Part shown: positions 40,680-62,000 of the stretch, in pieces
Layout of the letters: each line of letters opens with the position of its first letter
Position numbering within the stretch: position 1 is the stretch's first letter
Source of the DNA: Anderseniella sp.
GTDB lineage: Bacteria > Pseudomonadota > Alphaproteobacteria > Rhizobiales > Aestuariivirgaceae
Length of the DNA: 64,000 bases
Assembly (NCBI GenBank): GCA_028289645.1
Contig: JANQOK010000008.1
Coordinates: 1 to 64,000, forward strand
Direction of reading: 5' to 3'
Notes under the pieces: generated by a model
Told to the model about the DNA's origin: nothing
Seen by the model: only the letters and a program-made list of their open reading frames with translations
Databases searched by the model: none
Position numbers and translations under genes: made by a program

Positions 40680-40683
40680 GCCC

Positions 40684-44165: not shown

Positions 44166-44738
44166 GTGCTAGCCAATGAACTGCGCGATCATTTCCTGAC
44201 CTGGCAGTGCCGCATCCGCCAAATCGCCATGCGCGAAGGCGAAGGCCGTCCCAGCCAGGGCATGCGGCCGCGTGTCGTTGATGCCAGCGGGCAGCAATTG
44301 TCCTCCGGCATCATTGTGCTGCTGGTGCGCGAAGAGCCGTTTGAAAGCACCGAGTTCTTAAAATTCCAGGTTCAGAAGTACAATGATCCTCAGGACGTGT
44401 ACAAAAAGGCACTGATCTTCCTGCAATCCACCCACTATCACCGCGCTGCTGAATTCTCCGACCAGATGACCGGGTTGTTCAGCAAGGGATCCACCCTGGT
44501 CGAGCGCATGATGGGCGATGCAAAGGTTACCCTGCACTTCAGCCAGTTTTCGCAGACCTACTCCATACCGTGCCGGACGCACTTGCTGGACACCGACGAT
44601 GCCGCCTATCAGGCAACCCTGTGGCACAACCGGGTCTTCAATCCGAATATCGGCGCGGACATTGAGGTTGTGGGATTTCAGCCGGATTGGAACGCGGCAG
44701 TTGAGTTATTGAATAATTCAGTAAAAGCAACGGGTTGA
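44166..44738 (+). CDS. Conserved hypothetical protein downstream of gmaS
   Basis: 190 residues starting at a GTG with GGAG 8 bases ahead. The sequence is hydrophilic and compact (HFLTWQCRIRQIAMREGEGRPSQGMRPRV, IIVLLVREEPFESTEFLKFQVQK, QATLWHNRVFNPNIGADIEVVGFQPDWN). There is no signal peptide or membrane segment and I recognise no domain. It lies 79 bases after gmaS in the same direction, and a LysE exporter follows after 56 bases. A role in the GS/NMG pathway is inferred from position only. Confidence 0.7.
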   Translation: MLANELRDHFLTWQCRIRQIAMREGEGRPSQGMRPRVVDASGQQLSSGIIVLLVREEPFESTEFLKFQVQKYNDPQDVYKKALIFLQSTHYHRAAEFSDQMTGLFSKGSTLVERMMGDAKVTLHFSQFSQTYSIPCRTHLLDTDDAAYQATLWHNRVFNPNIGADIEVVGFQPDWNAAVELLNNSVKATG

Positions 44739-48521: not shown

Positions 48522-49881
48522 GTTTCTGCACAGCTCCGCTTTTCGTCTGGCCGGGGTTTTCATCGGCCTGCTGTCGGCAGTTCTTCTGGTGGTCGGCTGG
48601 CTGTTTTACTCCACCTTGTCAGGCGAATTGCTGGAGCATCTGGACGAACGCATCGATGACCAGGTTGCATTGTTTGAAACCGAGCTGAAAAGCGATGGCG
48701 AGGCCAGCCTGACCGCGCTAATACAGCGCCATATGCAAACCGGGGACACCGAAGACCGATTGTTCTACTTCGGTCGCGATGGAACCAGGCTCGCCGGTGT
48801 CGATTTGCCGGACGCAGTTGCCGGCAGCCGCGGTTATTTCACCCGGGCCGGCCCGCAGGGAGAGCTCAACCTGTACCGTTATGCCGGCCGCAAGCTGGCT
48901 CAACATGAGCTGATCGTAGCTTTTGAGGCTGAACACGTCGAAGAGATGAATTCCATTCTGAGGCGCATTCTGGCGTGGTTTATCCCGCTTGTGCTGGGCC
49001 TTGCCTTGGTTCTGGCGCTGGTGTTTGCCCGCCGCTCGCAAACCCGCCTCTCCGGATTCCGGCAGTCGCTGTCCAGCGTGGCTGATGGCAAACTGTCAGT
49101 GCGGCTTGCCGTATCCGGCAGCAATGATGACGTCGACCGCTTCGCCCAGGAAATCAACAGCACGCTGGCAAGGCTGCAGACCACGGTCGAGGCCATCAGG
49201 CAGGTCAGCACCGACATTGCCCATGACTTGAAAACACCGATCGGGCGACTGTCCATCGCCATCGAGAACGCCCTTGATAAGCTCGAAGCGGGCGACGATG
49301 CCACACCCGACCTGCAACTGGCCCAGAGCGAAGCTGACACGGTCAACAGGACGTTCGATGCCCTGCTGCGAATTTCACAGATCGAGGCCGCTGACCGGAC
49401 CAGCGAGTTTGCCAGACTGGATTTGTCCAGCATTATCGGGAATCTGATGGACGGCTATGAAGCGGCTGTGGACGCACACGGTGCGCGTGTTTCCGTTCAG
49501 CTGCGCCATGACGAGGCTCACCCGGTCAACGGCGACAGCTCGCTGGTGACCCAGATGCTGGCTAACCTGCTCGACAATGCCCTGCATCACGGCGGCAAAC
49601 CGGCTACCATCGCAATCACAACGTCGAGCGACGCGTCACATGTTATGCTTGAAGTCGCCGACCATGGCGCCGGCATTCCGCCGGAGGAACGCGACAAGGT
49701 GTTCCGCCGCCTCTACCGACTGGAGCGCAGCCGCACGACGCCCGGCAACGGCCTGGGCCTAAGCCTGGTAAAGGCCGTCACAGAATTGCATGGCGGCACC
49801 ATAACCCTGTCCGACAACGAGCCTGGTCTCAAGGTGAGTATCCGGCTTCCGGTGAGCGAAGCCCGCACCAAGATCAATTGA
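48508..49881 (+). CDS. Two-component sensor histidine kinase
   Basis: About 457 residues. There are two membrane helices (~10-30 and ~150-172) around a ~115-residue periplasmic sensor, then HAMP (FARRSQTRLSGFRQSLSSVADGKLSVRL), HisKA with the phospho-His in STDIAHDLKTPIGRLSI, and HATPase_c (NLLDNALHHGGKP, VADHGAGIPPEERDKVF, GNGLGLSLVKAV). The ATG at 48508 lies inside the response regulator's end, so the pair is coupled. The stop overlaps the convergent cupin gene. The signal is unknown; the metallophosphoesterase upstream may be part of the system. Confidence 0.92.
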   Translation: MPRHEFLHSSAFRLAGVFIGLLSAVLLVVGWLFYSTLSGELLEHLDERIDDQVALFETELKSDGEASLTALIQRHMQTGDTEDRLFYFGRDGTRLAGVDLPDAVAGSRGYFTRAGPQGELNLYRYAGRKLAQHELIVAFEAEHVEEMNSILRRILAWFIPLVLGLALVLALVFARRSQTRLSGFRQSLSSVADGKLSVRLAVSGSNDDVDRFAQEINSTLARLQTTVEAIRQVSTDIAHDLKTPIGRLSIAIENALDKLEAGDDATPDLQLAQSEADTVNRTFDALLRISQIEAADRTSEFARLDLSSIIGNLMDGYEAAVDAHGARVSVQLRHDEAHPVNGDSSLVTQMLANLLDNALHHGGKPATIAITTSSDASHVMLEVADHGAGIPPEERDKVFRRLYRLERSRTTPGNGLGLSLVKAVTELHGGTITLSDNEPGLKVSIRLPVSEARTKIN

Positions 49882-50242
49882 AACCGACACCGGGCGACAG
49901 GTACTCCTTGCGCACCGGCGAGAAGATATCCAGCACCACCGCGCCGTCCGGCCCCGCTTTCATGGTGTGCAGCGCGTTCGGTGGCGTGCGCCAGATATCA
50001 CCCTTGCTGATCTGGAACTCCTCATCGTCCTGGTAGCGGGTGGCCGATCCCGACAGCATGACGCCCCACTGTTCTTCCGGGTGCTTGTGCATCTCACCCA
50101 TGGCATGCGGCTCAATGCGCACCACCGACAGCATTGCATTCTCACCTGGAAAAACCGTCGTCGTCATGCCGTCTGCAAGCTGGCGGAACATGCCACCTTC
50201 CTCACTGTCCAGGTTGAAGAGTTCGATTTTTGAACGGGCCAT
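49874..50242 (-). CDS. Single-domain cupin protein at the end of cluster B
   Basis: 122 residues of one cupin barrel: MLSVVRIEPHAMGEMHKHPEEQWGVMLSG with metal-binding His/Glu (motif 1) and KGDIWRTPPNALHTMKAGPDGAVVLDIF (motif 2). It may bind or isomerise a small metabolite. GGAG lies before the ATG. It is separated from the upstream 136-residue gene by a strong terminator, so it is either transcribed with partial read-through or from its own promoter. A cluster role is inferred. Confidence 0.8.
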   Translation of the reverse strand: MARSKIELFNLDSEEGGMFRQLADGMTTTVFPGENAMLSVVRIEPHAMGEMHKHPEEQWGVMLSGSATRYQDDEEFQISKGDIWRTPPNALHTMKAGPDGAVVLDIFSPVRKEYLSPGVGFN

Positions 50243-50262
50243 TTAACACTCCGTGAGTTTTG

Positions 50263-50296
50263 AAAAAACACCCCGCCGACATTGAACCTGGCGGGG
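50263..50296 (-). terminator. Rho-independent terminator/attenuator of cluster B
   Basis: On the minus strand CCCCGCC (50296-50290), a 12-base loop, GGCGGGG (50277-50271), then UGUUUUUUC. The 7-bp stem is GC-only and the U-run is clear. It sits between the 136-residue gene (stop at 50320) and the cupin gene (start at 50242). Confidence 0.88.
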
Positions 50297-50319
50297 CATT
50301 CTCGTTGTTCACCGATCGT

Positions 50320-50730
50320 CTAGAACTTACGGTAGGCCTTGTTCAGCACCACCATCGGATGGTCCGGCGACATCTGAAACTTGATCAGGAGTTCGCGGGC
50401 AATCATATCGCGATCCTGCTGGTTGTCAGGCAGGTCGTAGCTTTCCGGTATCGCCACCCAGCCGTTGATGTTCCGGTCGAAAACAGCAGGTTTGCCGTCG
50501 TCATAGCCCATGTGCACATCCTCCAGCCAGTTGAGGTCCTCCCAGCCCATGAACTCGATATATCCTTTGAGGAAATCGGTGAGGCGCTCGTAGTCAGGCA
50601 ACAGGTTCACATCATAGCGGTAGCCGATGTGCTGACCGATCACCTGCTCGCGTTCTGAGTCGATGCCACCACCTTTGAGGAAATGATCGACGTCTTCGAT
50701 TTCGGCGCCTTTATAGCCAGTTCCAGCCAT
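50320..50730 (-). CDS. Conserved-looking hypothetical protein of cluster B (136 aa)
   Basis: 136 residues, acidic and rich in Asp, Tyr and Trp (YKGAEIEDVDHFLKGGGI, GYIEFMGWEDLNWLEDVHMGYDDGKPAVFDR, GWVAIPESYDLPDNQQDRDMIAREL). There is no signal peptide and no membrane segment, and I recognise no domain. GGAGGA precedes the ATG. It lies 14 bases after the FMN subunit, so it is part of the same transcript. It might be a small subunit or regulator of the cluster B synthase. The product is real by spacing and start signal; the function is unknown. Confidence 0.78.
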   Translation of the reverse strand: MAGTGYKGAEIEDVDHFLKGGGIDSEREQVIGQHIGYRYDVNLLPDYERLTDFLKGYIEFMGWEDLNWLEDVHMGYDDGKPAVFDRNINGWVAIPESYDLPDNQQDRDMIARELLIKFQMSPDHPMVVLNKAYRKF

Positions 50731-50744
50731 GTTCGTGTCCTCCG

Positions 50745-52118
50745 TCAGATATGGTGATAGTCGTCTACGCCGACAGTGAAGTCGGTACCGGCAAGCGGCA
50801 CCTGGGCAATGGCTGAGGCTTCCATGGTCAGCGCTGCCAGGTCTTCCGGCTCAAGACTGTGGATGTTGGTCTTGCCGCAGGCGCGTGCCATCATCTGGGC
50901 TTCCATGGTCAGGGTATGCAGGAAGTTGTAGACACGCTCTGCCGCCTGGTCCGGATCGAGGCGCTTGCGCAAGGCGGGATCCTGCGTCGCCACACCGACC
51001 GGGCAGCGCCCGGTGTGGCAGTGATAGCACTCACCCGGCTCCACGCCCATCTCGGACGGATAGTCGGCTTCGTCGATATCCTTGTTGCAGTTCAGCGCCA
51101 TCATGGCGGAGTGCCCGATGGCAATCGCATCGGCACCGAGCGCCAACGCCTTGGCGACATCGCCACCATTGCGGATACCGCCAGCATAGATGAGGGTGAT
51201 GTCACCACGCTTGCCGATATCATCGATGGCGCGCCGTGCCTGGCGAATGGCCGCCATGCCCGGCACACCGGTTTCCTCCGTGGCCAGATGCGGACCGGCA
51301 CCGGTGCCGCCTTCCATGCCATCAATATAGATCGAGTCAGGATCACACTTTGCCGCCATGCGCACATCATCGTAGACGCGCGCCGCACCGAGCTTGAGCT
51401 GGATCGGAATCTGCCAGTCGGTCGCCTCGCGGATTTCCTGAATCTTCAAAGCCAGATCATCCGGTCCCAGCCAGTCCGGGTGGCGGGCAGGTGAACGCTG
51501 GTCAATACCGGCAGGCAGCGAACGCATTTCGGCAACCTGGTCGGTGACCTTCTGTCCCATCAGGTGTCCGCCGAGGCCAACCTTACAGCCCTGCCCAATG
51601 AAAAACTCGCAGCCATCGGCCAGTTGCAGATGGTGCGGATTGAAGCCATAACGGGACTGGATGCACTGGTAAAACCACTTGGATGAATAGCGGCGTTCAT
51701 CCGGAATCATGCCGCCTTCACCGGAACAGGTTGCCGTTCCGGCCATTGTGGCGCCACGCGCCAGGGCGGTCTTGGCTTCGAACGACAGGGCGCCGAAACT
51801 CATGCCGGTGATGTAGATCGGAATATCCAGCACCAGCGGACGCTTGGCACGCGGGCCGATAACGGTCTTGGTCAGGCACTTCTCGCGATAGCCTTCAATC
51901 ACGAAACGGGTCAGCGTACCCGGCAGGAAGGTCAGGTCGTCCCAGTGGGGAATCTTCTTGAACAGGGAAAACCCGCGCATGCGGTAGCGTCCGAGTTCGG
52001 ACTTGATGTGAATGTCGTTCACCACTTCCGGCGGGAACACAAACGAGTTGCCGAGCTTGTACTTCTTCTCGACCTGCAACTTGGAATGGCCGGTATCTTT
52101 TTTGGTCTTGCCAGTCAT
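50745..52118 (-). CDS. FMN-dependent glutamate-synthase-like catalytic subunit with cysteine motif (cluster B)
   Basis: About 457 residues of the GltB FMN-barrel: LDIPIYITGMSFGALSFEAKTALARGATMAGT, GEGGMIPDERRYSSKWFYQCIQSRYG, FFIGQGCKVGLGGHLMGQKVTDQVAEM, DGMEGGTGAGPHLATEETG, YAGGIRNGGDVAKALALGADAIAIG. Cys364, Cys367 and Cys372 (CYHCHTGRC, followed by PVGVATQDP) keep two of the three spacings of the glutamate-synthase [3Fe-4S] ligands and add a C-x2-C. Cluster A has none of these. The start is ATG 52118 or GTG 52127. The amine acceptor and donor are unknown. Confidence 0.88.
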   Translation of the reverse strand: MTGKTKKDTGHSKLQVEKKYKLGNSFVFPPEVVNDIHIKSELGRYRMRGFSLFKKIPHWDDLTFLPGTLTRFVIEGYREKCLTKTVIGPRAKRPLVLDIPIYITGMSFGALSFEAKTALARGATMAGTATCSGEGGMIPDERRYSSKWFYQCIQSRYGFNPHHLQLADGCEFFIGQGCKVGLGGHLMGQKVTDQVAEMRSLPAGIDQRSPARHPDWLGPDDLALKIQEIREATDWQIPIQLKLGAARVYDDVRMAAKCDPDSIYIDGMEGGTGAGPHLATEETGVPGMAAIRQARRAIDDIGKRGDITLIYAGGIRNGGDVAKALALGADAIAIGHSAMMALNCNKDIDEADYPSEMGVEPGECYHCHTGRCPVGVATQDPALRKRLDPDQAAERVYNFLHTLTMEAQMMARACGKTNIHSLEPEDLAALTMEASAIAQVPLAGTDFTVGVDDYHHI

Positions 52119-52161
52119 TGAATTCACTTTCTCATGTGGTTGGAGCCTGAAAACCCGATCC

Positions 52162-53010
52162 CTAAAGGACCAGCTTTTTCTCCGACGGTTCGAGGTTGTC
52201 GTAACTCCACAGCTGTTTGCCCGCGACGATCTTGGTGAAATGATCCACGCCCTTATCCGGCATCATTTCGTACTGGGTCAGCTTGCGGGTCAGCCAGGCC
52301 TTATCGAGATCGGTAAGCTCGGCAGGAACAGCATCAACGCCCAGGTCCTGGATTTCGCCACCGACAAAGATGGTGCCGTCATACATGCTGTCACCGAGGT
52401 TCTTGCCGGCATTGCCGCACACGACCATGCGGCCGCGCTGCATCATGAAGCCGGAAAATGCGCCGGTATCACCACCGACCAGAATGGTGCCGCCCTTCTG
52501 ATCAATACCGGTGCGCGACCCGACCGAGCCCTTGCACACAAGATCGCCGCCGCGAATGGCGGCGCCAAACGTCGAGCCGGCGTTTTTCTCGACAACACAG
52601 ACGCCGGCCATCATGTTTTCGGCAAAAGACCAACCGACACGCCCGGAAATCCGCACGGTCGGGCCATCAAGCAGGCCGCAGCCGAAGTAGCCCAGCGACC
52701 CGTTCACGATGAAGTTCATCCGGTGAAGGATGCCGACAATGATCGAATGCTTCGCGCCGGGATTTTCCAGCACGATGGTGCCGTGGCCGGATTTAATGAG
52801 ATCGCGGATCTCGCAGTTGATCTCGGTTGCATCCTTGTCCTCGCAATCAACCGAGGCACGTTTGTTGAAGTCCACGTCCGGTGCAAATGCATAAGCATAG
52901 CCACCTTCGTTCTCGAGCGAGAACATGGTCTTGATGTCACGGCCTTTCAGCGGCTCGACATGGAGGCCCATCTCTTCGCCGGCGTGGCCCGTCGTATCTA
53001 CGCCTGCCAT
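52162..53010 (-). CDS. GXGXG beta-helix protein of cluster B
   Basis: 282 residues. A ~70-residue N-terminal region (GEEMGLHVEPLKGRDIKTMF, YAYAFAPDVDFNKRASVD) precedes the beta-helix (GYFGCGLLDGPTVRISGRVGWSFAENMMAGVCVVEKNAGSTFGAA, KGSVGSRTGIDQKGGTILVGGDTGAFSGFMMQRGRMVVCGNAGKNLGDSMYDG). The cluster A counterpart is 227 residues, so the extra part is specific to B. GAGGAGGT lies inside the end of the amidotransferase gene, and the genes overlap by 13 bases, so translation is coupled. Confidence 0.87.
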   Translation of the reverse strand: MAGVDTTGHAGEEMGLHVEPLKGRDIKTMFSLENEGGYAYAFAPDVDFNKRASVDCEDKDATEINCEIRDLIKSGHGTIVLENPGAKHSIIVGILHRMNFIVNGSLGYFGCGLLDGPTVRISGRVGWSFAENMMAGVCVVEKNAGSTFGAAIRGGDLVCKGSVGSRTGIDQKGGTILVGGDTGAFSGFMMQRGRMVVCGNAGKNLGDSMYDGTIFVGGEIQDLGVDAVPAELTDLDKAWLTRKLTQYEMMPDKGVDHFTKIVAGKQLWSYDNLEPSEKKLVL

Positions 53011-53933
53011 ACTCTTACCTCCTCGTCGTAAGGGTCCCAGGTATCAATTTCATGGGGAACAATTGCTCGGATCGCGACTTCCTCCGACGCCAGCGCAACC
53101 ATGTCGTCGGTTTCGTAGAGCACCATCGGTTTGGCGGCCATGGTATCCTTGGCCATGCCAAGCTGGTCCTTGGTGGTCACCAGATAGGTGAATACGCCGT
53201 CAATCTCCTCGATGGACTTTTTCAGGGTTTCCTCAAGGGTCATGCCTTTTTCCAGGCTGGTGGCCACATAAACCGCCAACAGTTCGGAATCACAGTTGGA
53301 GACAAAACGCTGACCTTCACGCTCCAATTGCCGGCGCATCAGCCAGTAGTTGGTGATCTGGCCGTTATGCACCACGGCAATATCGCTGTAAGGGTAGGCC
53401 CAGTATGGATGCGCCGAGCGGATGTCGACATCGGACTCGGTGGCCATGCGGGTGTGCCCGATCCCATGGGTGCCGGTGAAATCGCCCAGCCCGTAGGCGT
53501 CGGAAACCACGCCTGCATCGCCCAGGTCCTTGATCAGCTCGAGCGCCGACCCGATGGACAGGATTTCTGCCCCCTCGATGTCCTCGATATGATCGGACAG
53601 CTTCTTCATGTCGCCGTCATACTGAATCTCGTAACGGTAAGCGTACTCGGTTGCTTCTTCCAGTTCCTTGACCTTCACCCCGAGCGCCTTCAGGGTTTCG
53701 TCAACGGCGTCCTTGCGGCGCTTGATCTCCTCATGGATCTTCAGCGCGCCGTCCAGGTCTTCCTGCTCGGCAACCTTGAAGCGCAACACGAATGTATTTT
53801 CCTCAGGTTCGCCGTAAATCGCGAACCCGGTTGAATCCGGCCCCCGGTGTTTCAGGGCCTGCAGCATGCTGGTCATTTCCTGACCGACATTGCTGGAGCC
53901 CTTCCGGTGTATCAGCCCTGCAATTCCGCACAT
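52998..53933 (-). CDS. Class II glutamine amidotransferase subunit of cluster B
   Basis: About 311 residues starting MCGIAGLI, with the N-terminal Cys nucleophile. Amidotransferase elements are KHRGPDSTGFAIYG, GHTRMATESDVDIRSAHPYW and VVHNGQITNYWLMRRQL. A charged helical insertion (IHEEIKRRKDAVDETLKALGVKVKELEEATEYAYR) is longer than in the cluster A protein. AGGAGAAA precedes the ATG at 53933; the frame upstream to 53990 runs into a hairpin. It probably feeds ammonia or an amine to the FMN subunit. Confidence 0.88.
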   Translation of the reverse strand: MCGIAGLIHRKGSSNVGQEMTSMLQALKHRGPDSTGFAIYGEPEENTFVLRFKVAEQEDLDGALKIHEEIKRRKDAVDETLKALGVKVKELEEATEYAYRYEIQYDGDMKKLSDHIEDIEGAEILSIGSALELIKDLGDAGVVSDAYGLGDFTGTHGIGHTRMATESDVDIRSAHPYWAYPYSDIAVVHNGQITNYWLMRRQLEREGQRFVSNCDSELLAVYVATSLEKGMTLEETLKKSIEEIDGVFTYLVTTKDQLGMAKDTMAAKPMVLYETDDMVALASEEVAIRAIVPHEIDTWDPYDEEVRVWQA

Positions 53934-53961
53934 GGGCACATTTCTCCTGTTAAGTGGTTCG

Positions 53962-53983
53962 CCGGCGGGCCGTTGCCCGCCGG
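53962..53983 (-). other. Intercistronic hairpin between GS and amidotransferase genes
   Basis: CCGGCGGGC (53962-53970) and GCCCGCCGG (53975-53983) pair perfectly over 9 bp with a 4-base CGTT loop. There is no U-run, so it is more likely an mRNA-stabilising or processing element than a terminator. It lies in the 76-base gap after the ligase stop. Confidence 0.6.
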
Positions 53984-54009
53984 AATTCAATCGTCGAAAA
54001 GGCCGCTGG

Positions 54010-55488
54010 TTACGGCAGGCATTCCATGTAGGTCTCTTTGTCCCAATCGGTCACGGAAGACATGAAGCGTCCCCACTCATCCGATTTGTACTCGTGGTAA
54101 AGCCGGTACATTTCGCCGGGCAGACCACGCTGGACAACCTCATCAGCCTCAAGCGCCTCGAGCGCTTCGCCGAGTGACATCGGCAGTTTCTTAACATCCT
54201 TGCCGGCCTTGATGGCCTCATAGATGTTTCTCTCCTCCGGCTCGCCGGGATCGAGCTTGTTCTCGATACCGTCATCTGCCGCCGCCAGAATGCACGATCC
54301 CATGAGATACGGGTTCACCATGGAATCCACAGAGCGGTATTCAAACCGGCCCGGCGCCGACACGCGCAAGCCTGTCGTACGGTTCTGGAATCCCCAGTCG
54401 GCAAACACCGGTGCCCAGAAACCGGTATCCCACAAGCGCCGATACGAGTTCACAGTGGACGATCCGATCGCAGTCAGCGCCCGCAGGTGATGCACGATGC
54501 CGCCGATGGCCTCCAGACCCGCCTTTTGCGGCATCTGCGGGTCATCTCCGTCGGGCATGAAGGTGTTTTCACCGCCCTTCACGTACATGTAATTGTCCTT
54601 CATGCCCGGCAGCGCCTTGGGGTCATTGCCGGTGCGACAGAACTCGTCCTCACCACCGCGCCACAGTGACATGTTGTGATGACAGCCGGATGCTGACACA
54701 CCTTCGAACGGCTTACTCATGAAGCAGGCGAAAATGCCAAATTCACGGGCAACCTGGGCGCAAATCTGCCGATAGGTAGTCAGCCGGTCCGCATTGCGCA
54801 GCACGTCGTCGAACATCCAGTTCAACTCCAGCTGTCCCGGCGCATCCTCATGATCACCCTGGATCATGTCGAGGCCCATGGCACGGGCGTATTCCATCAC
54901 CTTCATGTAAACCGGACGCAGGCTCTCGAACTGGTCGATGTGGTAGCAGTATGGCTTGGAGAACCCCTCCTCCGGCTTGCCGTCCTCGTTGAACTTGAGC
55001 CACATCATTTCCGGCTCGGTGCCCATGCGCAGGCTGAGACCGTTGTGCTTTTTCTTGAAGTCGTCATGCAGGCGGCGCAGGTTGCCACGGCAGTCTGCTG
55101 TCAGATATCCGCCAGGATCCACTTTTTCCTCGCGGTTGCGGAACAGTGTGCAGAAAAACCGGCCCACACGCTTGTCCCAGGGCAGTTGCATGAAAGTTTC
55201 CGGCTCCGGAATGCCGACCAGTTCGGCCGCTTCAGGACCATAACCGAGATAGTCGCCGGCCCGGTTCGTAAACAGGTTCATGGTGGCGCCGTAGACGAGC
55301 TGGAAACCCTTTTTGGCAACAGATTCCCAGTGATCGGCTGGTATGCCCTTGCCCATCACCTTGCCAGTAACGGATACGAACTGAAGGTAGAGATACTCGA
55401 TCCCCAGCTCGTCGATCATTTTCCGGACTTCCTTGACCTTTTCGGCCCTGCCCGGCGCATCTACAAAATTTTCAATATCCATTGCCAT
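54010..55488 (-). CDS. Glutamine-synthetase-family ligase of cluster B
   Basis: 492 residues with GS catalytic motifs: GTEPEMMWLKF, GDHEDAPGQLELNWMFDD, SASGCHHNMSLW, SAPGRFEYRSVDSMVNPYL. It is 57 residues longer than the cluster A enzyme and differs in the ligand-facing strand (HHNMS against HAHIS). It probably joins glutamate to an amine with ATP; the amine may be ammonia, methylamine, a polyamine or an amino alcohol. GGGAGAAA precedes the ATG. It is the first gene of cluster B and divergent from the GntR gene. Confidence 0.88.
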   Translation of the reverse strand: MAMDIENFVDAPGRAEKVKEVRKMIDELGIEYLYLQFVSVTGKVMGKGIPADHWESVAKKGFQLVYGATMNLFTNRAGDYLGYGPEAAELVGIPEPETFMQLPWDKRVGRFFCTLFRNREEKVDPGGYLTADCRGNLRRLHDDFKKKHNGLSLRMGTEPEMMWLKFNEDGKPEEGFSKPYCYHIDQFESLRPVYMKVMEYARAMGLDMIQGDHEDAPGQLELNWMFDDVLRNADRLTTYRQICAQVAREFGIFACFMSKPFEGVSASGCHHNMSLWRGGEDEFCRTGNDPKALPGMKDNYMYVKGGENTFMPDGDDPQMPQKAGLEAIGGIVHHLRALTAIGSSTVNSYRRLWDTGFWAPVFADWGFQNRTTGLRVSAPGRFEYRSVDSMVNPYLMGSCILAAADDGIENKLDPGEPEERNIYEAIKAGKDVKKLPMSLGEALEALEADEVVQRGLPGEMYRLYHEYKSDEWGRFMSSVTDWDKETYMECLP

Positions 55489-55819: not shown

Positions 55820-56521
55820 ATGATTTCGATCGAACAAAAGAGCGCCCGGGGAGCCCGATCCATTACATCGGAACTGCGCAAGGCGATTGAGACCGGCAGG
55901 TATCATGACGGGGACCAATTGCCGCCTGAACGAGACCTTTCCGACACCTACTCGGCTTCCCGCAATACGATCAGGAAGGCTCTGGACAACCTTGAAGAGG
56001 CCGGCCTGGTGGTCCGGAAAGTCGGCAGCGGCACTTTTGTCAGCTATGCCGGCCCGACGGACCTTGAAACCGAGAACGTCGTTGAGCAGATCAGCCCGCT
56101 GCAGCTGATCGACGCGCGGATCGGTTTCGAACGGCAGATGACGCGCCTGGCTGTGGTTCACGCCACCGGACGGGATATCGAAAAAATGCAGGCCCTGCTC
56201 ATCCAGTTGGAGGCAACCGAGCACGACCGCAATGCTTTCACGAAACTGGATTCAGAGTTCCACCACCAATTGGCGAAAGCATCCGGCAATCTGTTGATTG
56301 TGAAGCTGTACCACCAGATCAACGAAGTACGCACTCACTCCCAGTGGAGAAAGGCGCGTGAACTGGTGCTCAGCCCCGACAAGATTCGCCAGTACAACAA
56401 GTTCCACAGGGGCATACTGGACGGGTTGATAAACCGTGACACCAAAGCCGCGATCGATGCACTCAACGCCCACATGGAACTGGCCCACCTCGATCTCGTT
56501 GGCACCGCCGACGACGATTGA
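55820..56521 (+). CDS. GntR-family regulator of FadR subfamily
   Basis: 233 residues: an N-terminal winged HTH (SITSELRKAIETGRYHDGDQLPPERDLSDTYSASRNTIRKALDNLEEAGLVVRKVGSGTFV) and an FCD-type all-helical ligand domain (LIDARIGFERQMTRLAVVHATGRDI, DSEFHHQLAKASGNLLIVKLY, HRGILDGLINRDTKAAIDALNAHMELA) with the His/Asp metal residues typical of the group. It is divergent from cluster B and probably controls it, the amidase gene and possibly tmoX. AAGG lies about 9 bases before the ATG. Confidence 0.92.
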   Translation: MISIEQKSARGARSITSELRKAIETGRYHDGDQLPPERDLSDTYSASRNTIRKALDNLEEAGLVVRKVGSGTFVSYAGPTDLETENVVEQISPLQLIDARIGFERQMTRLAVVHATGRDIEKMQALLIQLEATEHDRNAFTKLDSEFHHQLAKASGNLLIVKLYHQINEVRTHSQWRKARELVLSPDKIRQYNKFHRGILDGLINRDTKAAIDALNAHMELAHLDLVGTADDD

Positions 56522-56536: not shown

Positions 56537-57400
56537 TCAGCCGGCACCGGCAAGCCGCGGCTTGCGTTCCAGACCCTCTTCATCCAAGTGAATTGGCCGA
56601 TCATGCTCAAGTGCCGGAATTCTGGTCCTGGCGGCTTCAACCCTGGCCATGTCCAGTTCGGCCACAATATACCCTTCACCGTCGCCGGCATCCGCCAACA
56701 CCTCTCCCCACGGGTCGATAATCAGCGAATGCCCGTAGCACTCGCCTCCGCCTGATATTTTCCCATACTGGCACGGCGCAATCACAAAGCACCCGGTTTC
56801 GATAGCCCGGGCACGCTGCAGCACATGCCAGTGGGCCTCACCTGTCACCCTGGTGAATGCGGCTGGGGTTGCCAACACCTGTGCGCCGGCCTTGGCAAGC
56901 TTCCGGTACAGCGATGCAAACCGCAAGTCATAACAGATCGACAGACCGATGGGCGCCCAAGGTGTATCTGCGACGACGGCCTGATCACCCGGTGAAATGG
57001 TCGCCGATTCACGATATGAGCCACCTTCCAGATTCACGTCGAACATGTGAATCTTGTCATAGTGCGCGACGAGATCACCCTCAGGGCTGATCACATAAGA
57101 GCGGTTTGATATGCGGCCATCTGTGTTTTGCACACCGACCGAGCCAAGCAGGAACCAGACACCGAGCCTGCGGGCGGCATCGGCAAACGCAGGCAGCACA
57201 GGATGCTCAGCTTCCGGGTACGCACCGGGCAGAAACAGTCCGCCCCTGGTTTCCAGCCCGGAAAAATACTCCGGTGTCGCGATCAACTGAGCCCCCGCCT
57301 CCGCGGCCGCGGTCGACAACCGCAGGCTTGTCTCGATGTTTTGCTGAACGTCCGGTGTGGCACAGTTCTGCACGCAGGCTGCAGTGAAGGTCTTCGGCAT
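56537..57400 (-). CDS. Carbon-nitrogen hydrolase (Nit/omega-amidase-like)
   Basis: About 287 residues of the nitrilase superfamily. The catalytic triad is visible: Glu in IATPEYFSG, Lys in VAHYDKIHMFDV and Cys in GLSICYDLRFASLY. The EYF-YDKIH-CYDLRF pattern is nearest to the Nit1/Nit2 amidases (deaminated-glutathione amidase, omega-amidase) rather than nitrilases. It may open glutaramate-type amides, a by-product of glutamine chemistry. The start is ATG 57400 with an ATTGGT-repeat motif upstream. It ends 15 bases after the GntR stop on the other strand. Confidence 0.85.
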   Translation of the reverse strand: MPKTFTAACVQNCATPDVQQNIETSLRLSTAAAEAGAQLIATPEYFSGLETRGGLFLPGAYPEAEHPVLPAFADAARRLGVWFLLGSVGVQNTDGRISNRSYVISPEGDLVAHYDKIHMFDVNLEGGSYRESATISPGDQAVVADTPWAPIGLSICYDLRFASLYRKLAKAGAQVLATPAAFTRVTGEAHWHVLQRARAIETGCFVIAPCQYGKISGGGECYGHSLIIDPWGEVLADAGDGEGYIVAELDMARVEAARTRIPALEHDRPIHLDEEGLERKPRLAGAG

Positions 57401-57426
57401 GTCATTTTCCAATCACGTTGCTTGCA

Positions 57427-57443: not shown

Positions 57444-57717
57444 CCATAGGAGTTCAAAAGAGAGTTGCTGGCGCGACCAGACTTTTGCCGGAAATCTGCA
57501 CGAAGATCATGACACCAGGGACACCTGACATCGCCCACCAACTCAACCAATCTCCAAAATTGGCTCATAATCGGTTCTATTTTGGGTTGATTTGGTTGAT
57601 GATTCAGCCAATAGTGCAGATGATGTCGCCGCCGAGACAGGTGGAACGAGCGTCCAAAAAGACACAATCAGCACTAAAACGCCCGCCAAGGGCCCAACAA
57701 ATCCGGGAGGAACGACG

Positions 57718-58671
57718 ATGAAGATGACAAAACTGCTGGCCACTTCGGCCATTGTTGCCGCCAGTCTGGCGTTCACACTACCAGCCTATGCAGAAGCAGA
57801 GTCCGATGATCCGATCATCATGGTTCAAAACAACTGGACCAGCCAGCTGGTGCTGTCGTTCGTTGTCGGCAAGACACTGGAAGGCATGGGCTACACCGTC
57901 GAATACGCTCCGTCGGACTCGCAGTTGCAGTTCAAAGCCATTGCCGATGGCGACATGCATTTCCAGGTCGAAGCCTGGGAAGGTTCGATGAAGGAAGCCT
58001 TCGAGAAGGCGGTTGCAGAAGATGGCATGGTCGACGCCGGCACACATACAGCCGAGACCCGGGAAGAATGGTGGATCCCCGACTATGTCCTGGAGAAGTG
58101 CCCAGAGGCCCAGGACTGGAAGGGCCTGAATGCCTGCGCGGAAATCTTTGCAACCGCGGAGACCAAACCAAAGGGCCGCTTCGTCGGGCCGCCCGCCGAC
58201 TGGGGCAAGAACTACGCCGCCCGCATTGAATCGCTGGAGATGGACTTCAAGGCCATCAATGTCGGACAGGCTGCCACCTTGTGGGCGGAATTGCAGTCAG
58301 CATACGACCGCAAGGAGCCGATTGTGCTGTTCAACTGGACTCCGAATTTCATCGAGTCGAAGTTCAAGGGCCGGTTTGTCGACTTCCCGAAACCTGAAAA
58401 GGGTTGCATGGAAGACAAGGCCTGGGGACCAAACCCGAACGCCACAGGTGACTGCGGCGCGCCACATTCAGGCTGGTTGAAGAAGGCCGCCTGGTCGGGG
58501 CTGGCCGACAAGTATCCGAAGGCCTGGGCCGTAATGCAGAAGGTCGACTTCGACAACGCCCAGATTGCCGCCGCAGCCCTGATGGTTGATGTGGACGGCA
58601 TGTCTCCTGAAGAAGCCGCTGACAAGTGGATTGCCGAAAATGCAGCGGTCGTCGAAGGCTGGAAGAAATAG
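57718..58671 (+). CDS. tmoX: Substrate-binding protein of amine ABC transporter, probable TMAO (TmoX-like)
   Basis: About 317 residues with a Sec signal peptide (TKLLATSAIVAASLAFTLPAYAEA). The OpuAC-type fold has many aromatic residues for a cation cage: QNNWTSQLVLSFVVGKTLE, EAWEGSMKEAFEKA, EEWWIPDYVLEKCPEAQDW, GPPADWGKNYAA, FNWTPNFIESKFKGRFVDFP. It is a paralogue of the protein at 12934-13908. GGGAGG lies upstream of the ATG at 57718; earlier in-frame codons have no such site. The TMAO assignment comes from the order binding protein-ATPase-permease-tmm; betaine is the alternative. Confidence 0.82.
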   Translation: MKMTKLLATSAIVAASLAFTLPAYAEAESDDPIIMVQNNWTSQLVLSFVVGKTLEGMGYTVEYAPSDSQLQFKAIADGDMHFQVEAWEGSMKEAFEKAVAEDGMVDAGTHTAETREEWWIPDYVLEKCPEAQDWKGLNACAEIFATAETKPKGRFVGPPADWGKNYAARIESLEMDFKAINVGQAATLWAELQSAYDRKEPIVLFNWTPNFIESKFKGRFVDFPKPEKGCMEDKAWGPNPNATGDCGAPHSGWLKKAAWSGLADKYPKAWAVMQKVDFDNAQIAAAALMVDVDGMSPEEAADKWIAENAAVVEGWKK

Positions 58672-58700: not shown

Positions 58701-58733
58701 GCCGGGCTGAAGACATCTTTTGCCCGGCTTTTT
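58701..58733 (+). terminator. Terminator-like attenuator after tmoX
   Basis: GCCGGGC (58701-58707), a 14-base loop, GCCCGGC (58722-58728), then TTTTTC. It lies between the binding-protein stop (58671) and the ATPase start (58789). Partial termination here would raise binding-protein output over the membrane genes. The stem is 7 bp and GC-rich. Confidence 0.75.
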
Positions 58734-58788
58734 CATCTGTGCAACGATAAGAAGACGATCCGGCGGGCAAGCTGCTGAAGGGGACAAA

Positions 58789-59829
58789 ATGGGCGTCGAC
58801 GCGCAAATCAAATGCCGGAACATCTGGAAAATCTTCGGCGGTGACCCGGAAGGCTTCATGCAGCGTCATAACGGCAAGCCAACTGCTGACGACCTAGCCG
58901 CGGAGGGCTATATCGGCGCTGTGCGCAATGTCTCGTTTGATGTCCATCAGGGTGAAATCCTGATCATAATGGGTCTGTCGGGCTCCGGAAAATCCACCAT
59001 CATCCGCTGCATCACGAGGTTGAACGACCCGACCGCCGGAGAGGTGGAATATGAAGGGCGCGACCTGCTCAAGGCGACCCCGCAGGAACTGATCGATATC
59101 CGCCGCCACAAGATGGGCATGGTGTTCCAGAGTTTCGGCCTGCTGCCGCATCGCACGGTTCTGTCGAATGTCGCCTTCCCGCTTGAAGTCCAGAACATCG
59201 ATCAGCTGGAGCGCGAAAAGCGCGCCATTGAGATGATTGAGCTTGTCGGGCTGGGCGGCAGGGAGAACTATTTCCCGCGCGAGCTGTCCGGTGGCCAGCA
59301 GCAACGGGTGGGCATTGCCAGATCGCTGGCCGTGGAGCCGGACATCTGGTTTCTTGATGAGCCGTTTTCCGCACTCGATCCCCTTATCCGGGCCGAAATG
59401 CAGGACGAGTTCATTCGCCTTCAGCAAATGCTGAAAAAGACCATTGTGTTCATCACGCACGATTTCGAGGAGGCCACCAAGCTTGCAGACCGCATCGGCA
59501 TCATGAAAGACGGCGAGATGGTGCAGCTGTGCACGCCTGAGGAAATGGTGCTGAATCCAGCAGACGAGTATGTGGCCGAATTCGCCCGCAATGCGCCGCG
59601 GGACCGGATTGTTTCTGCAGCGGCGATCATGGAGAAAACTTCAGCCAAAACACCGCGCAAAGTGTCGGGCGCATCGGTTTCTGCCGGTGCCAAGATCGGT
59701 GAGATTGCGGCGCAGGTCATCAGTTCAGACAAACCAACACCGGTGGCCGATTCAAACGGGCATTTGCTGGGACATGTGGACCGGGACCGCATTACCAGGG
59801 CCCTGTTCGGCAAGGGTGAGATTGTATGA
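58789..59829 (+). CDS. tmoV: ATP-binding subunit of amine ABC transporter, probable TMAO (ProV type)
   Basis: About 346 residues. The core has Walker A GLSGSGKSTI, GMVFQSFGLLPHRTV, LSGGQQQRVGIARSLAVEP, IWFLDEPFSALD and FITHDFEEA. The start NIWKIFGGDPEGFMQRHNGK is the ProV-type N-terminus, and a CBS-like tail (TPVADSNGHLLGHVDRDRITRALFGKG) ends it. ATG at 58789 has AAGGGGAC ahead. The stop overlaps the permease start by four bases. It is a close paralogue of 11753-12841. Confidence 0.85.
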   Translation: MGVDAQIKCRNIWKIFGGDPEGFMQRHNGKPTADDLAAEGYIGAVRNVSFDVHQGEILIIMGLSGSGKSTIIRCITRLNDPTAGEVEYEGRDLLKATPQELIDIRRHKMGMVFQSFGLLPHRTVLSNVAFPLEVQNIDQLEREKRAIEMIELVGLGGRENYFPRELSGGQQQRVGIARSLAVEPDIWFLDEPFSALDPLIRAEMQDEFIRLQQMLKKTIVFITHDFEEATKLADRIGIMKDGEMVQLCTPEEMVLNPADEYVAEFARNAPRDRIVSAAAIMEKTSAKTPRKVSGASVSAGAKIGEIAAQVISSDKPTPVADSNGHLLGHVDRDRITRALFGKGEIV

Positions 59830-62000
59830 ACAGTGCGGTGACAGATGTCGGCAAGACGCCCTCGTCCAATGTACCGGGGCTGAATTCGTTCTGGGCGCAG
59901 ATGGGAGCCATGATCTGTGTCACCGTGTTGCTGAGCCTGGTCCTCGACTTCATGAAGGTCTGGCCACAGGAGTGGATCGTTCCCATCAAGGAATGGGTCA
60001 CCCGGTTCTTCACATGGCTCGACAAGGAAGCCGGAATCGGCCCGCTCAAGTTCAAGACTGTCACGCGCTCAATCGCCTGGTTGCTGGAACAGCCGCTGGA
60101 CTGGGCTGAGTACATTTTGTACCGCGGCATCAAGGCCAAGCAGTTCCCGGCGATCTTCTGGATATTCGGCCCGCTGATCGCCTTGGCGGCACTGCACAAC
60201 CGTTTTGGCATGCAGAAATGCTTGCTTGCTGTCGCATCCATATGGGCTGTCATGGTTGCCGACAATGTGCTGCTGCACACAGGCCTTTTCCAGTTGCCGG
60301 CCACGGTTCTGGATGTACTTGGCGTCAAGAAACTGGATGCGCTTCCCTGGGTGGTGATCGTGGCCGGCGCCGGGATACTGGGACATTGGATCGGCGGCTG
60401 GAAACTGGCGCTGTTTTCGGCAGGATGCATTGGCTATCTGGCCATCATGGGCCTGTGGCGCGATTCCATGCGGACGTTCTCCATCGTCGTGGTCTCAGTG
60501 CCGTTCGCGGTCGTGCTGGGCCTTGGCCTCGGTATCTGGGTGACCCGCTCGAAACGAGCTGCGGCGATCATCTCTCCGATGTTCGACATCATGCAGGCAA
60601 CCCCGCACATGGCCTATCTCGTGCCGGTGGTGGTATTGTTTGGCGCAGGTCAGGTGCCGGCCATGATCGCAACGGTGATCTTTGCCATGCCGCCCATGGC
60701 CCGGTGTACCATACTGGGGATCCAGACAGTCTCCAGCGACGTAGTGGAATCCGGCCACATGTCAGGATGCACACCGCGACAGCTGTTGTGGAAAGTCACG
60801 CTGCCATCGTCACAACGCATCCTCATGCTTGGGGTCAACCAGGTCGTTATGCAGACACTTGCAATGGTGGTCATCGCGTCCATGGTCGGTGCCCAGGGCC
60901 TGGGCCACAAGCTGTTGTTTTCCCTGCAGCAATTACGCCTGGGCGCTGCCGTCGAACAAGGCCTCGCGATCGTTCTGATGGCTGTGGTCCTCGACCGCCT
61001 GACGCAAGCCTATGCCAACCGCGCACCAGGCGAACTGGCATCGCGCGAGATCGGCTGGAAGGCCAGAAAACACCTGTGGCTTTTCCTTGGCGTCACTGTT
61101 GCGGCGTACCTGCTGGCACAGTTTCTGCCCATGGTGGAAAAGTATCCCCGGGCCTACACTTTCACGCTCGGCCGCAATATCGACTTCGCCCTGCGCGCCT
61201 TCTCCAAGCATGCCTACGACTACATCAATCCGGTGAGGGATTTCATCACCGTCTACATGCTGATCCCGTTCCGGGACTTTTTCCTGTGGTTGCCATGGAC
61301 CACCGTTGTCGGCGCCGTCGGCCTCGCCGCCTACTGGCTTGGCGGCATTCGCACCACATTGCTGACCACCGCCCTGATCGCCGTCGTTATTCTGGTAACC
61401 GGCAACTGGGAACAGGGCATGCTGACGCTGTATCTTGTCACGTCCGCCGTTATTTTGTGCGTGCTGATCGGTGTGCCAATCGGCATCTGGGCGACGCGGT
61501 CTGACCGCGCCGCCCGAGCCATAATGGCAACGTGCGATACGCTGCAGACGTTTCCGTCGTTCATCTATCTGATCCCGGTGATCATGCTGCTGAAGGTTGG
61601 TGACCTGTCCAATGTGATTGCCATCCTGGCCTATGCCACCGTGCCGGCGGTCCGCTACACATACTTGGGCATCAAGCGTATTCCTGAGGTCACCATCGAA
61701 GCTTCCATCGCCAACGGGACAACGCCATTGCAACGGCTGTGGAAAGTGGAACTGCCGATCGCGCTGCCTGAAATCATGCTGGGTATCAATCAGACAATCA
61801 TGATGGCTCTCGCGATGACGGCGATCACCGCGCTGATCGGATCATCCGACCTGGGTCAGGAAATCTACCGAGCGCTGCCGACCGCTGATTCCGGTCGCGG
61901 CATCATGGCGGGCCTCGGGATCGCCGTTATCGGCATTGTCGCCGACCGGTTGATCCAGGCCTGGGCGGCCGAACGCAAGAAGCAATTGGGCATAAGTTAA
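59826..62000 (+). CDS. tmoW: Fused double-domain permease of amine ABC transporter, probable TMAO
   Basis: 724 residues with two BPD_transp_1 domains. The first ends in MSGCTPRQLLWKVTLPSSQRILMLGVNQVVM, the second in ANGTTPLQRLWKVELPIALPEIMLGINQTIM. They are joined by a membrane segment (HLWLFLGVTVAAYLLAQFL), so the whole membrane unit is one chain, as in the paralogue at 9768-11756. There are about twelve to fourteen membrane helices. The ATG overlaps the ATPase stop. Tmm follows after 30 bases. Confidence 0.87.
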   Translation: MNSAVTDVGKTPSSNVPGLNSFWAQMGAMICVTVLLSLVLDFMKVWPQEWIVPIKEWVTRFFTWLDKEAGIGPLKFKTVTRSIAWLLEQPLDWAEYILYRGIKAKQFPAIFWIFGPLIALAALHNRFGMQKCLLAVASIWAVMVADNVLLHTGLFQLPATVLDVLGVKKLDALPWVVIVAGAGILGHWIGGWKLALFSAGCIGYLAIMGLWRDSMRTFSIVVVSVPFAVVLGLGLGIWVTRSKRAAAIISPMFDIMQATPHMAYLVPVVVLFGAGQVPAMIATVIFAMPPMARCTILGIQTVSSDVVESGHMSGCTPRQLLWKVTLPSSQRILMLGVNQVVMQTLAMVVIASMVGAQGLGHKLLFSLQQLRLGAAVEQGLAIVLMAVVLDRLTQAYANRAPGELASREIGWKARKHLWLFLGVTVAAYLLAQFLPMVEKYPRAYTFTLGRNIDFALRAFSKHAYDYINPVRDFITVYMLIPFRDFFLWLPWTTVVGAVGLAAYWLGGIRTTLLTTALIAVVILVTGNWEQGMLTLYLVTSAVILCVLIGVPIGIWATRSDRAARAIMATCDTLQTFPSFIYLIPVIMLLKVGDLSNVIAILAYATVPAVRYTYLGIKRIPEVTIEASIANGTTPLQRLWKVELPIALPEIMLGINQTIMMALAMTAITALIGSSDLGQEIYRALPTADSGRGIMAGLGIAVIGIVADRLIQAWAAERKKQLGIS

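Follow-up and report, generated by a model that had tools for sequence, protein, structure and literature searches.

Cluster B, on the minus strand of the window – the 64,000-nucleotide stretch of Anderseniella sp. DNA analysed here – is a conserved five-gene cassette encoding a ligase of the glutamine synthetase (GS) family, a class II glutamine amidotransferase, a GXGXG protein, an FMN subunit and a protein of 136 aa. The cassette is located in trimethylamine (TMA) loci and is present in many marine bacteria, SAR11 included; no description of it was found in the literature searched. We think it likely that it assimilates dimethylamine (DMA) and stands in, as a non-orthologous replacement, for the DMA monooxygenase (DmmDABC) of the TMA/TMAO pathway. 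There is a reasonable, if somewhat less secure, case that it constitutes an undescribed monooxygenase-free DMA route, supplying the step so far missing in SAR11 and in many other marine alphaproteobacteria. Behind this proposal stand the gene content and order of the cassette, the residues of its ligase, its co-occurrence with Tdm, the lack of overlap with Dmm in our samples, and repeated swapping. It is genomic evidence that ties the cassette to DMA; both the substrate and every chemical step are inferred.

If true, the proposal would close a gap already recognised in the nitrogen chemistry of the ocean. SAR11 and other abundant marine bacteria carry genes from TMA/TMAO to DMA, together with methylamine genes, but lack the known DMA enzyme; one study interprets the gap as a metabolic bottleneck by which DMA accumulates and feeds marine aerosols (PMC5520151). 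Were the cassette the DMA step, the published surface-ocean 'DMA bottleneck' would need revision, metagenome inference from dmm gene counts would be wrong, and a new marker for DMA use would be at hand; gamma-glutamyl-dimethylamide and N,N-dimethylglutamate would become measurable targets. Cassette-bearing Roseovarius strains are possible test hosts; genetic manipulation of SAR11 is, in a passage of PMC8918994, at present impossible.

Make-up of the cassette

A preliminary description of the window had assigned six minus-strand genes to cluster B, and all six open reading frames are where it placed them. They comprise the ligase (54010..55488; Gln-synt_C), the amidotransferase (52998..53990; GATase_6/7, aligned with cluster A and HTCC1062), the GXGXG subunit (52162..53010; PF01493), the FMN subunit (50745..52127; Glu_synthase, PF01645, 305 bits), the 136-aa protein (50320..50730; no Pfam family) and a Cupin_2 protein. 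The cupin does not belong: across the 106 stretches compared, its family was found in 6 loci, that of the window among them, a count that, like all our neighbour-family counts (frames of at least 80 aa, linked at 35% identity, 106 stretches), is a lower bound. The cassette ends in a stem-loop, CCCCGCC...GGCGGGG, followed by a T-run (50263..50296, minus strand), which can be read directly from the sequence ahead of the cupin, where the preliminary description had placed a terminator; our terminator scan did not list it because its loop has 12 bases and the scan allows 8.

The five genes stand in this order in 91 of 105 loci, with 11 further loci cut by contig ends. Of these loci, 25 were chosen for their 136-aa gene and 80 for their ligase, and the count thus speaks to order and not to frequency. 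In one locus (L062) a GmaS-type ligase precedes the other four genes, and in two (L078 and L126) the cassette ligase occurs without them.

The 136-aa protein marks the cassette. Its family (33-row alignment, 85% mean column identity) has no match in Pfam or NCBIfam; a fold search with its model (pLDDT 74.5) gave a best E of 0.9 and nothing at 0.001 or better, and a family profile search of the PDB returned one chance match (E 0.025). By position its HTCC1062 counterpart is SAR11_1309. We take it as a putative extra subunit.

A second set of synthase genes

The four core modules of cluster B recur on the plus strand as cluster A, as Pfam and TIGR03105 bear out. Cluster A consists of an MgsA-type class II amidotransferase (39783..40679; Pfam, alignment), an MgsB-type GXGXG protein (40426..41367; Pfam, alignment), an MgsC-type FMN subunit (41382..42731; alignment, tree) and the gamma-glutamylmethylamide synthetase GmaS (42780..44087). 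The MgsB-type frame is over-long at its 5' end, and its true start likely lies beyond the stop of the gene before it. That this is the GmaS/Mgs set of the N-methylglutamate pathway for monomethylamine, as first supposed, is supported by the ligase, which scores 670.1 bits against TIGR03105 (GmaS, type III; curated cut-off 469.6) and 621 bits against the GmaS crystal structure 7cql.

Like GmaS-MgsABC, cluster B combines a GS-family ligase, its catalytic residues conserved, with three separate glutamate-synthase-type subunits (class II amidotransferase, GXGXG and FMN, by Pfam). It differs in that the ligase comes first, is longer (492 against 435 aa) and shares only about 30% identity; in its extra 136-aa protein; and in its company, being found with Tdm and not with Dmm. 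Alignments show that the differences from cluster A initially noted – gene order, protein lengths, an N-terminal extension of the GXGXG protein and an insertion in the amidotransferase – are real, and the extension is also found in HTCC1062. The difference in cysteine motif is real too: the FMN subunit of B carries the 3Fe-4S-like motif CYHCHTGRCPVG, but HTCC1062 cluster A shares it and GltB has a similar one, and it is in the window's cluster A that the Fe-S cysteines have been lost. For the amidotransferase, the start codon is very likely the ATG at 53933 (MCGI, with Cys2 as nucleophile) and not the TTG at 53990.

GltBD has homologous domains and keeps the cysteine motif, but in cluster B those domains are split over three separate reading frames, in place of a fused large subunit, and no GltD-like gene is among the five. 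Cluster B was also rejected as a GltB fragment: GltB is encoded elsewhere in the genome, on contig C5, in a 1577-aa open frame.

The ligase

Against TIGR03105 the cluster B ligase, proposed here as a gamma-glutamyl-dimethylamide synthetase, reaches 309.2 bits, under the cut-off. In the ligase tree ten B rows form their own clade (99/96) and ten A rows another (100/100); in the FMN-subunit tree the clades are likewise apart (A, 98/99, six rows; B, 99/99, ten rows). The preliminary description had named nesting within the GmaS or MgsC branch as grounds against a separate pathway, and when set against cluster A-type sequences neither B protein nested there. Plasmid ligases lie nearer to B than A does, in a tree whose long branches leave the deeper joins unsure.

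Across 81 B-ligase rows, the catalytic residues D177, E186 and R312 (GmaS numbering) and the metal residues are kept in every row, as are the methylamine-pocket residues Y147, Q175, D177, E179, E186, N188 and K30. Four sites are uniformly changed: D22, Y174, G231 and H237 of GmaS are S, I, A and N throughout. Two of these (Y174 and H237) are ATP contacts, alongside W189, which varies; among glutamate contacts G231 is altered and R327 is kept in 80 of 81. D22 presumably corresponds to the Asp50-like position of ammonia-type glutamine synthetase; the Asp of that enzyme is replaced by Ser in all 81 rows. An AlphaFold model of the cluster B ligase (mean pLDDT 45) was left unused. GmaS itself takes DMA poorly, with a Km of 16 mM against 27 uM for methylamine according to PMC7948447.

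The trimethylamine setting

Upstream of the ligase are a divergent GntR/FCD regulator (55820..56521, plus strand), whose family occurs in 85 loci and lies opposite the ligase strand in 88 of 89 copies, and a CN-hydrolase of nitrilase/omega-amidase type (56537..57412, minus), a frequent companion (42 loci). Then follow, on the plus strand, a TmoX-like OpuAC-type binding protein (57592..58671; PF04069, in a set adjoining tmm), a TmoW-like ABC ATPase (58720..59829) and a TmoV-like permease (59826..62000), the last two assigned by sequence reading and position, and a flavin monooxygenase of the trimethylamine monooxygenase type, Tmm (62031..63371; 815 bits to 5ipy and 580 bits to 6kbw, itself named trimethylamine monooxygenase). 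Tdm lies directly past the window end, at contig position 64335-66698.

The HTCC1062 genes run tmoX, Tdm, FAD oxidoreductase, ligase (SAR11_1305, the orthologue by gene order), amidotransferase, GXGXG, FMN, 136-aa, Amt, MgsABC and GmaS. The cassette sits where the DMA step is missing on paper. According to two papers HTCC1062 is without dmmDABC, yet grows with TMAO as sole nitrogen source (PMC5520151, PMC8918994); the authors of the growth study invoke an unknown isoenzyme for the DMA step (PMC8918994), and the other paper reports no evidence for DMA oxidation by SAR11 (PMC5520151).

Among 117 genomes of the order holding HTCC1062, the 136-aa gene is present in 46, Tdm in 46 and both in 44. 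In the two genomes with the 136-aa gene only, the contig stops 7 and about 370 bases past the FAD gene, at the expected Tdm site. Two genomes (G304 and G335) have Tdm without the 136-aa gene, in a sample scored for Tdm and the 136-aa gene.

Cassette and Dmm in Tdm genomes

Among 218 genomes of the family of Roseovarius atlanticus, the 136-aa gene occurs in 20, Tdm in 51 and a Dmm-type PF11927 gene in 30; the 51 Tdm genomes divide into 19 with the cassette, 28 with Dmm, none with both and 4 with neither. In a class sample of 289 genomes there are 24 Tdm genomes, comprising 19 with the cassette, 3 with Dmm, none with both and 2 with neither, which makes six with neither across the two samples. 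Tdm is at most 11 kb from the 136-aa gene in 15 of 19 cases. Cassette presence was scored in all samples by the 136-aa gene alone; all five genes were read in 25 of the 26 other class genomes with that gene (the exception being G071) and in a few family genomes.

A bare PF11927 match was rejected as the Dmm marker: 163 of the 218 family genomes have one, owing to a common shorter paralogue. In the family sample we therefore required 214 bits or more, a threshold chosen once the scores had shown a gap between 215 and 199 bits; 22 of the 28 Dmm-type genes in Tdm genomes then lie within 29 kb of Tdm. Weaker matches occur in 13 of the 20 cassette genomes and reach 190.1 bits at most. The class-sample marker is an E of 1e-63 or better (18 genomes), with no clear gap (221 then 211 bits), and three class Tdm genomes have weaker matches: G000 (191.6 bits), G259 (59.0) and G030 (51.3). 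G000 would hold both systems if its gene counted as Dmm; that gene is alone beside peptidase and dehydrogenase genes, with no other Dmm-like genes noticed.

Tdm was called at 50% identity or more, with search cut-offs of 1e-60 (class and SAR11-order samples) and 1e-150 (family sample). Paralogues were dropped from the family (G469, G479, G531, G551 and G616, with only 46-47% matches) and class samples (G022, 46%; G088, 43%, partial), and the partial G079 (73%) was kept. A tree of 69 Tdms, from which G079 and the four family and two class genomes with neither system were left out, shows five switches between cassette and Dmm. One is at the window's own genome, whose Tdm nests among Dmm-type Tdms (100/98) despite the cassette.

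Proposed route and alternatives

The preliminary description had left the substrate of cluster B open. It need not stay so, since distribution and neighbourhood point to DMA. Its broader interpretation is partly supported, with cupin membership and substrate revised: a ligase/transferase pathway apart from GmaS-MgsABC, passing through a gamma-glutamyl amide, fits the clades, the ligase residues and the gene order. The cassette probably attaches DMA to glutamate rather than oxidising it directly. Tdm would release DMA from TMAO, and the 492-aa ligase would spend ATP to couple this DMA to glutamate at the gamma-carboxyl, forming gamma-glutamyl-dimethylamide; the amidotransferase would free the amine within a complex with the GXGXG and FMN subunits, and the complex would condense it with 2-oxoglutarate and reduce the product to N,N-dimethylglutamate. 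The 136-aa protein may be a new subunit of this N,N-dimethylglutamate synthase (amidotransferase, GXGXG, FMN-FeS). An FAD enzyme would then remove one methyl by oxidative demethylation, and Mgd would turn the resulting N-methylglutamate back into glutamate, making free methylamine and GmaS dispensable. We know of no precedent for a class II amidotransferase opening a tertiary amide, which counts against this route.

Candidates for the FAD enzyme are a DAO-family protein often encoded just upstream and a heterotetrameric Sox/Mgd-type dehydrogenase. The FAD oxidoreductase is neither obligatory for cassette genomes nor exclusive to them. It is encoded in 23 of 27 class cassette genomes but missing from the window genome, G071, G077, G229, R. 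atlanticus and R. nubinhibens, while G173, G290, G304 and the Dmm genome G159 have it and lack the 136-aa gene. On contig C8 of the window genome neither a close match to this enzyme nor a close Sox/Mgd set was found.

DmmDABC would occupy the same place as the cassette, between Tdm and the methylamine steps. It differs in its PF11927 haem-type subunit, for which Pfam finds no equivalent among the cassette proteins, and the cassette would spend ATP and glutamate in place of O2.

One alternative is that the cassette handles DMA but releases methylamine, the gamma-glutamyl amide being demethylated by an FAD enzyme or the synthase and cluster A taking methylamine or gamma-glutamylmethylamide onward. 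The HTCC1062 cassette adjoins MgsABC-GmaS, and GmaS exceeds its cut-off in 35 of 47 cassette genomes; a further nine SAR11 cassette genomes all have it and seven SAR11 genomes without the cassette all lack it, and because GmaS accompanies the cassette there, SAR11 alone cannot separate DMA from methylamine. We regard such release as unlikely, since it gives the cassette's own synthase trio no job and 12 of the 47 genomes have no GmaS above the cut-off, against none of 10 Dmm genomes (10 of the 30; p 0.10, the Fisher values counting related genomes as independent). The 12 include G507, in which a single 4.4-Mb contig carries Tmm, Tdm, the FAD enzyme and the cassette, and G086, which lacks Tdm and is listed as 100% complete; GmaS-less genomes may, for their part, use methylamine dehydrogenase.

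A second methylamine pathway, a divergent GmaS/MgsABC-type set of isozymes, would account for the shared modules and the retained methylamine pocket, but is very improbable: HTCC1062, streamlined as it is, retains the two sets next to each other, the cassette is never with Dmm in Tdm genomes yet mostly with GmaS, and the four ligase changes and separate clade led us, with the distribution, to reject a simple GmaS isozyme. Also very improbable is another amine (ethylamine, ethanolamine, polyamine or choline-derived) drawn into TMA loci through shared nitrogen/C1 regulation, a reading that is in keeping with the 8 of 27 class cassette genomes without Tdm and with the plasmid ligases, but leaves unexplained the cassette/Dmm non-overlap despite five switches.

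Other observations

The plasmid relatives of the ligase (38-54% identity) are in unrelated settings, beside P450 or aldehyde dehydrogenase genes. The nearest non-cassette ones seen (40-54% identity), from Paracoccus sp. TOH, Ruegeria sp. SCSIO 43209 and Rhodococcus opacus 1CP, differ from cluster B in having no synthase trio or 136-aa gene within 10-12 kb either side. A promoter scan found 2 sites against 2.8 expected, and a tRNA scan none. On the plus strand, cluster A is flanked by an ammonium transporter (38047..39405; 66% identity to the gene at the HTCC1062 amt position) and by a conserved 190-aa protein without a Pfam family (44166..44738), whose family occurs near the cassette in 61 loci.

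Results

Cluster B (49874-55488, minus strand) consists of the six open reading frames that the preliminary description had given it; these carry, in order, the Pfam domains Gln-synt_C, GATase_6/7, GXGXG, Glu_synthase, none (the 136-aa protein) and Cupin_2. Its four core modules do indeed recur in cluster A (39783-44087). With TIGR03105 (cut-off 469.6) the ligase of cluster A reaches 670 bits, and against the crystallised GmaS 7cql 621 bits; on these grounds we assign cluster A, as its protein lengths had suggested, to the monomethylamine set GmaS-MgsABC. The ligase of cluster B reaches 309 bits with TIGR03105, below the cut-off, and 193 bits with 7cql. Nesting of the B proteins within the GmaS/MgsC branch, the outcome that would have told against a separate pathway, was not seen: the B ligase forms a clade of its own (99/96), as does the B FMN subunit (99/99), the deeper joins of both trees being unsure, with long branches outside the B clades.

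Residue numbering of RhGmaS was transferred, through alignment to 7cql, to an alignment of 81 B ligases and 11 GmaS. The residues that PMC7948447 names in RhGmaS for catalysis, metal binding and the methylamine pocket are kept in 81 of 81 B ligases; R327 is kept in 80. D22, Y174, G231 and H237 are uniformly replaced by S, I, A and N (n=81) and W189 is variable; three residues of this group contact ATP in RhGmaS and one contacts glutamate (PMC7948447). The Km of RhGmaS for dimethylamine (DMA) is 16 mM, against 27 µM for methylamine (PMC7948447); ligation of DMA is thus possible for the fold, and GmaS is a poor DMA enzyme.

The cassette was read in 105 loci: 25 stretches selected by the 136-aa gene and 80 named loci selected by the ligase, the latter being the best 80 of 332 confirmed matches and including among their hosts Roseovarius, Ruegeria, Nitratireductor, SAR116 and Hyphomicrobiales and Rhodobacteraceae bins. 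Roseovarius nubinhibens ISM is one of the strains with the cassette (L128). The order ligase, amidotransferase, GXGXG, FMN, 136-aa gene, all on one strand, holds in 91 of the 105; a contig end interrupts the cassette in 11, and in two (L078 and L126) the ligase is present and the remaining genes are absent. Locus L062 (genome G229, 4787-10245) is a natural ligase swap, in which a GmaS-type ligase (TIGR03105, 638 bits) precedes the other four cassette genes. The 136-aa protein has a mean column identity of 85% in a 33-row alignment and lacks cysteine in all 33 rows; searches of Pfam/NCBIfam and of folds placed it in no known family and gave no fold match. The cupin, initially listed as the sixth member, is not counted as part of the cassette, because its family was found in 6 loci and because in the window it lies beyond a stem-loop with a T-run.

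The neighbourhood of the cassette is a trimethylamine locus. Counted over the 105 loci and the window, all counts being lower bounds, its neighbours comprise a divergent GntR/FCD regulator (at least 85 loci), a CN-hydrolase (at least 42), a DAO-family FAD oxidoreductase, mostly immediately upstream of the ligase (at least 39), a class I amidotransferase (at least 32), OpuA-type ABC transporter genes (at least 27-30 each), an AraC/DJ-1-type regulator (at least 28), SoxB-like and SoxA-like subunits (at least 28 and at least 26), a flavin monooxygenase (at least 22), Amt (at least 17) and a Tdm-like DUF1989-GCV_T protein (at least 12). Relatives of a protein of ~190 aa with no Pfam family (window 44166-44738) lie near the cassette in at least 61 loci. 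The flavin monooxygenase of the window scores 815 bits against 5ipy, which, with 5gsn, we take to be the trimethylamine monooxygenase (Tmm) of R. nubinhibens, and 580 bits against 6kbw, which is named as such an enzyme. The gene for Tdm, which releases DMA from TMAO, lies just beyond the window (C8:64335-66698, on the same contig). The R. pomeroyi GntR-family regulator TmoR represses tmm, with DMA as its primary effector (PMC13390433), and most loci have, divergent to the cassette, a GntR-family gene that is a candidate orthologue of TmoR.

Genomes were scored for the cassette by the 136-aa gene in all three samples. In the SAR11-order sample (117 genomes, scored for this gene and Tdm) each was found in 46 genomes and both in 44 (Fisher p 3e-27, relatedness ignored). 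The two genomes with the 136-aa gene and without Tdm (G315, G400) have contigs that stop 7 and ~370 bases past the FAD gene, at the expected position of Tdm; those with Tdm and without the 136-aa gene are G304 and G335. Among 218 genomes of the R. atlanticus family the 136-aa gene occurs in 20, Tdm (at least 54% identity) in 51, and the PF11927 subunit of Dmm, the DMA monooxygenase, in 30 at a cut of at least 214 bits that was chosen after the data were seen. The 51 Tdm genomes divide into 19 with the cassette only, 28 with Dmm only, none with both and four with neither (p 1.8e-10, relatedness ignored). In 15 of the 19, Tdm lies on the contig of the 136-aa gene and no more than 11 kb from it, and Dmm lies within 29 kb of Tdm in 22 of the 28. 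The class sample (289 genomes) holds the cassette in 27, Tdm in 24 and both in 19; the other five Tdm genomes have Dmm (three) or neither (two), so that cassette and Dmm are together in no Tdm genome at the cut used (p 0.005, relatedness ignored). In the Roseovarius family, weaker-scoring PF11927 paralogues occur widely and are easily confused with Dmm; genome G000 has a lone gene of this haem-dependent N-demethylase-like kind (contig C5, 231971-232792).

Five changes between cassette and Dmm are required by a tree of 69 Tdm sequences, of which 47 come from the family sample, 21 from the class sample and one from the SAR11 strain HTCC1062. The well-supported branches force no fewer than five, and the bootstrap trees stay at five over their whole 5-95% range. 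A single ancient split therefore does not account for the mutual exclusion. The Tdm of the window genome is placed among Dmm-type Tdms (100/98), yet the genome carries the cassette; G416 and G572 present the converse case.

Discussion

The cassette seems to stand in for DmmDABC in the use of trimethylamine and TMAO. It would work in a manner analogous to GmaS-MgsABC, but is set apart from that family since its ligase falls outside by both TIGR03105 score and tree; it differs from DmmDABC in having no haem-type subunit. Among the open-licence papers listed by literature searches, none dealt with the cassette, or with gamma-glutamyl-dimethylamide or N,N-dimethylglutamate in DMA use.

Genome G296, from the sample around G207, is presumably that of 'Ca. 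Pelagibacter ubique' HTCC1062. Its genes run TmoX (on the opposite strand), Tdm, a 116-aa ORF, FAD oxidoreductase, ligase, amidotransferase, GXGXG, FMN, 136-aa gene, Amt, MgsABC and GmaS. The match to the 136-aa gene ends at 1,245,728. This agrees with PMC2704228, in which SAR11_1309 (hypothetical) and SAR11_1310 (amt) are separated by an intergenic stretch at 1245732-1245856. By order, the ligase is SAR11_1305, named glnT in PMC5069961, and the FAD enzyme SAR11_1304, named monomeric sarcosine oxidase in PMC3160333. The 116-aa ORF (locus L192, 4266-4616) does not fit into the SAR11 gene numbering and so may not be a gene. Similarly low values for SAR11_1302 opuAC (tmoX) and SAR11_1305 glnT in sulfur-limited stationary cells, in the table of PMC5069961, hint at joint regulation of tmoX and what is by position the B ligase. 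According to PMC5520151, SAR11 genomes possess tmm, tdm, tmoX and gmaS and lack dmmDABC, which its authors term a bottleneck; they also state that there is no evidence of DMA oxidation by SAR11. HTCC1062 grows with TMAO as sole nitrogen source, and the authors of that finding suppose an unknown DmmDABC isoenzyme (PMC8918994). The cassette sits in the place of the missing DMA step.

Most likely the ligase would join glutamate and DMA, with ATP, to gamma-glutamyl-dimethylamide. By analogy with MgsABC, the synthase trio would then most likely yield N,N-dimethylglutamate, the amidotransferase freeing DMA for condensation with 2-oxoglutarate and FMN-dependent reduction; an FAD enzyme would most likely strip one methyl group to give N-methylglutamate, and an Mgd-type enzyme would probably complete the demethylation. 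The support for a bypass of methylamine comes from a screen for GmaS and is suggestive only: GmaS over the TIGR03105 cut-off is absent from 12 of 47 cassette genomes, but from none of 10 Dmm genomes screened out of the 30 (p 0.10). One of the 12 is G507, in which the cassette is accompanied by Tmm, Tdm and the FAD enzyme. This support is limited by the SAR11 genomes screened, where GmaS goes with the cassette, being present in 9 of 9 with it and 0 of 7 without it.

The weak point of this scheme is the FAD oxidoreductase, which 23 of the 27 cassette genomes of the class sample possess but which is absent from the window genome, R. atlanticus and R. nubinhibens. Where it is absent, a Sox/Mgd-type enzyme would need to perform both demethylations; no such set was seen on contig C8 of the window genome. 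The oxidoreductase also occurs without the 136-aa gene (for example in G159, G173, G290 and G304). Two such loci, L207 (G290) and L208 (G304), belong to the SAR11 order; in G304 it adjoins Tdm directly, so its substrate there may not depend on the cassette.

Several related arrangements were encountered. L079 (1-2339) and L054 (3457-6400) hold, near the cassette, a divergent third trio of neither A nor B type: amidotransferase, GXGXG and a 650-aa FMN protein that lacks the cysteine motif. In L046 (10001-12403), on plasmid pGKT2 of Gordonia sp. KTR9, a ligase relative (39%) leads straight into an FAD-dependent oxidoreductase, the pair being flanked by two cytochrome P450 genes; this may be the XplB region known from RDX degradation. 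In cluster A the MgsC-type FMN subunit (41382-42731) has lost its 3Fe-4S-like cysteines, with DDWHEGQDPAG there instead, and the motif is likewise missing in L076 and L078; the MgsC of HTCC1062 retains it as CHHCHTGKCPVG.
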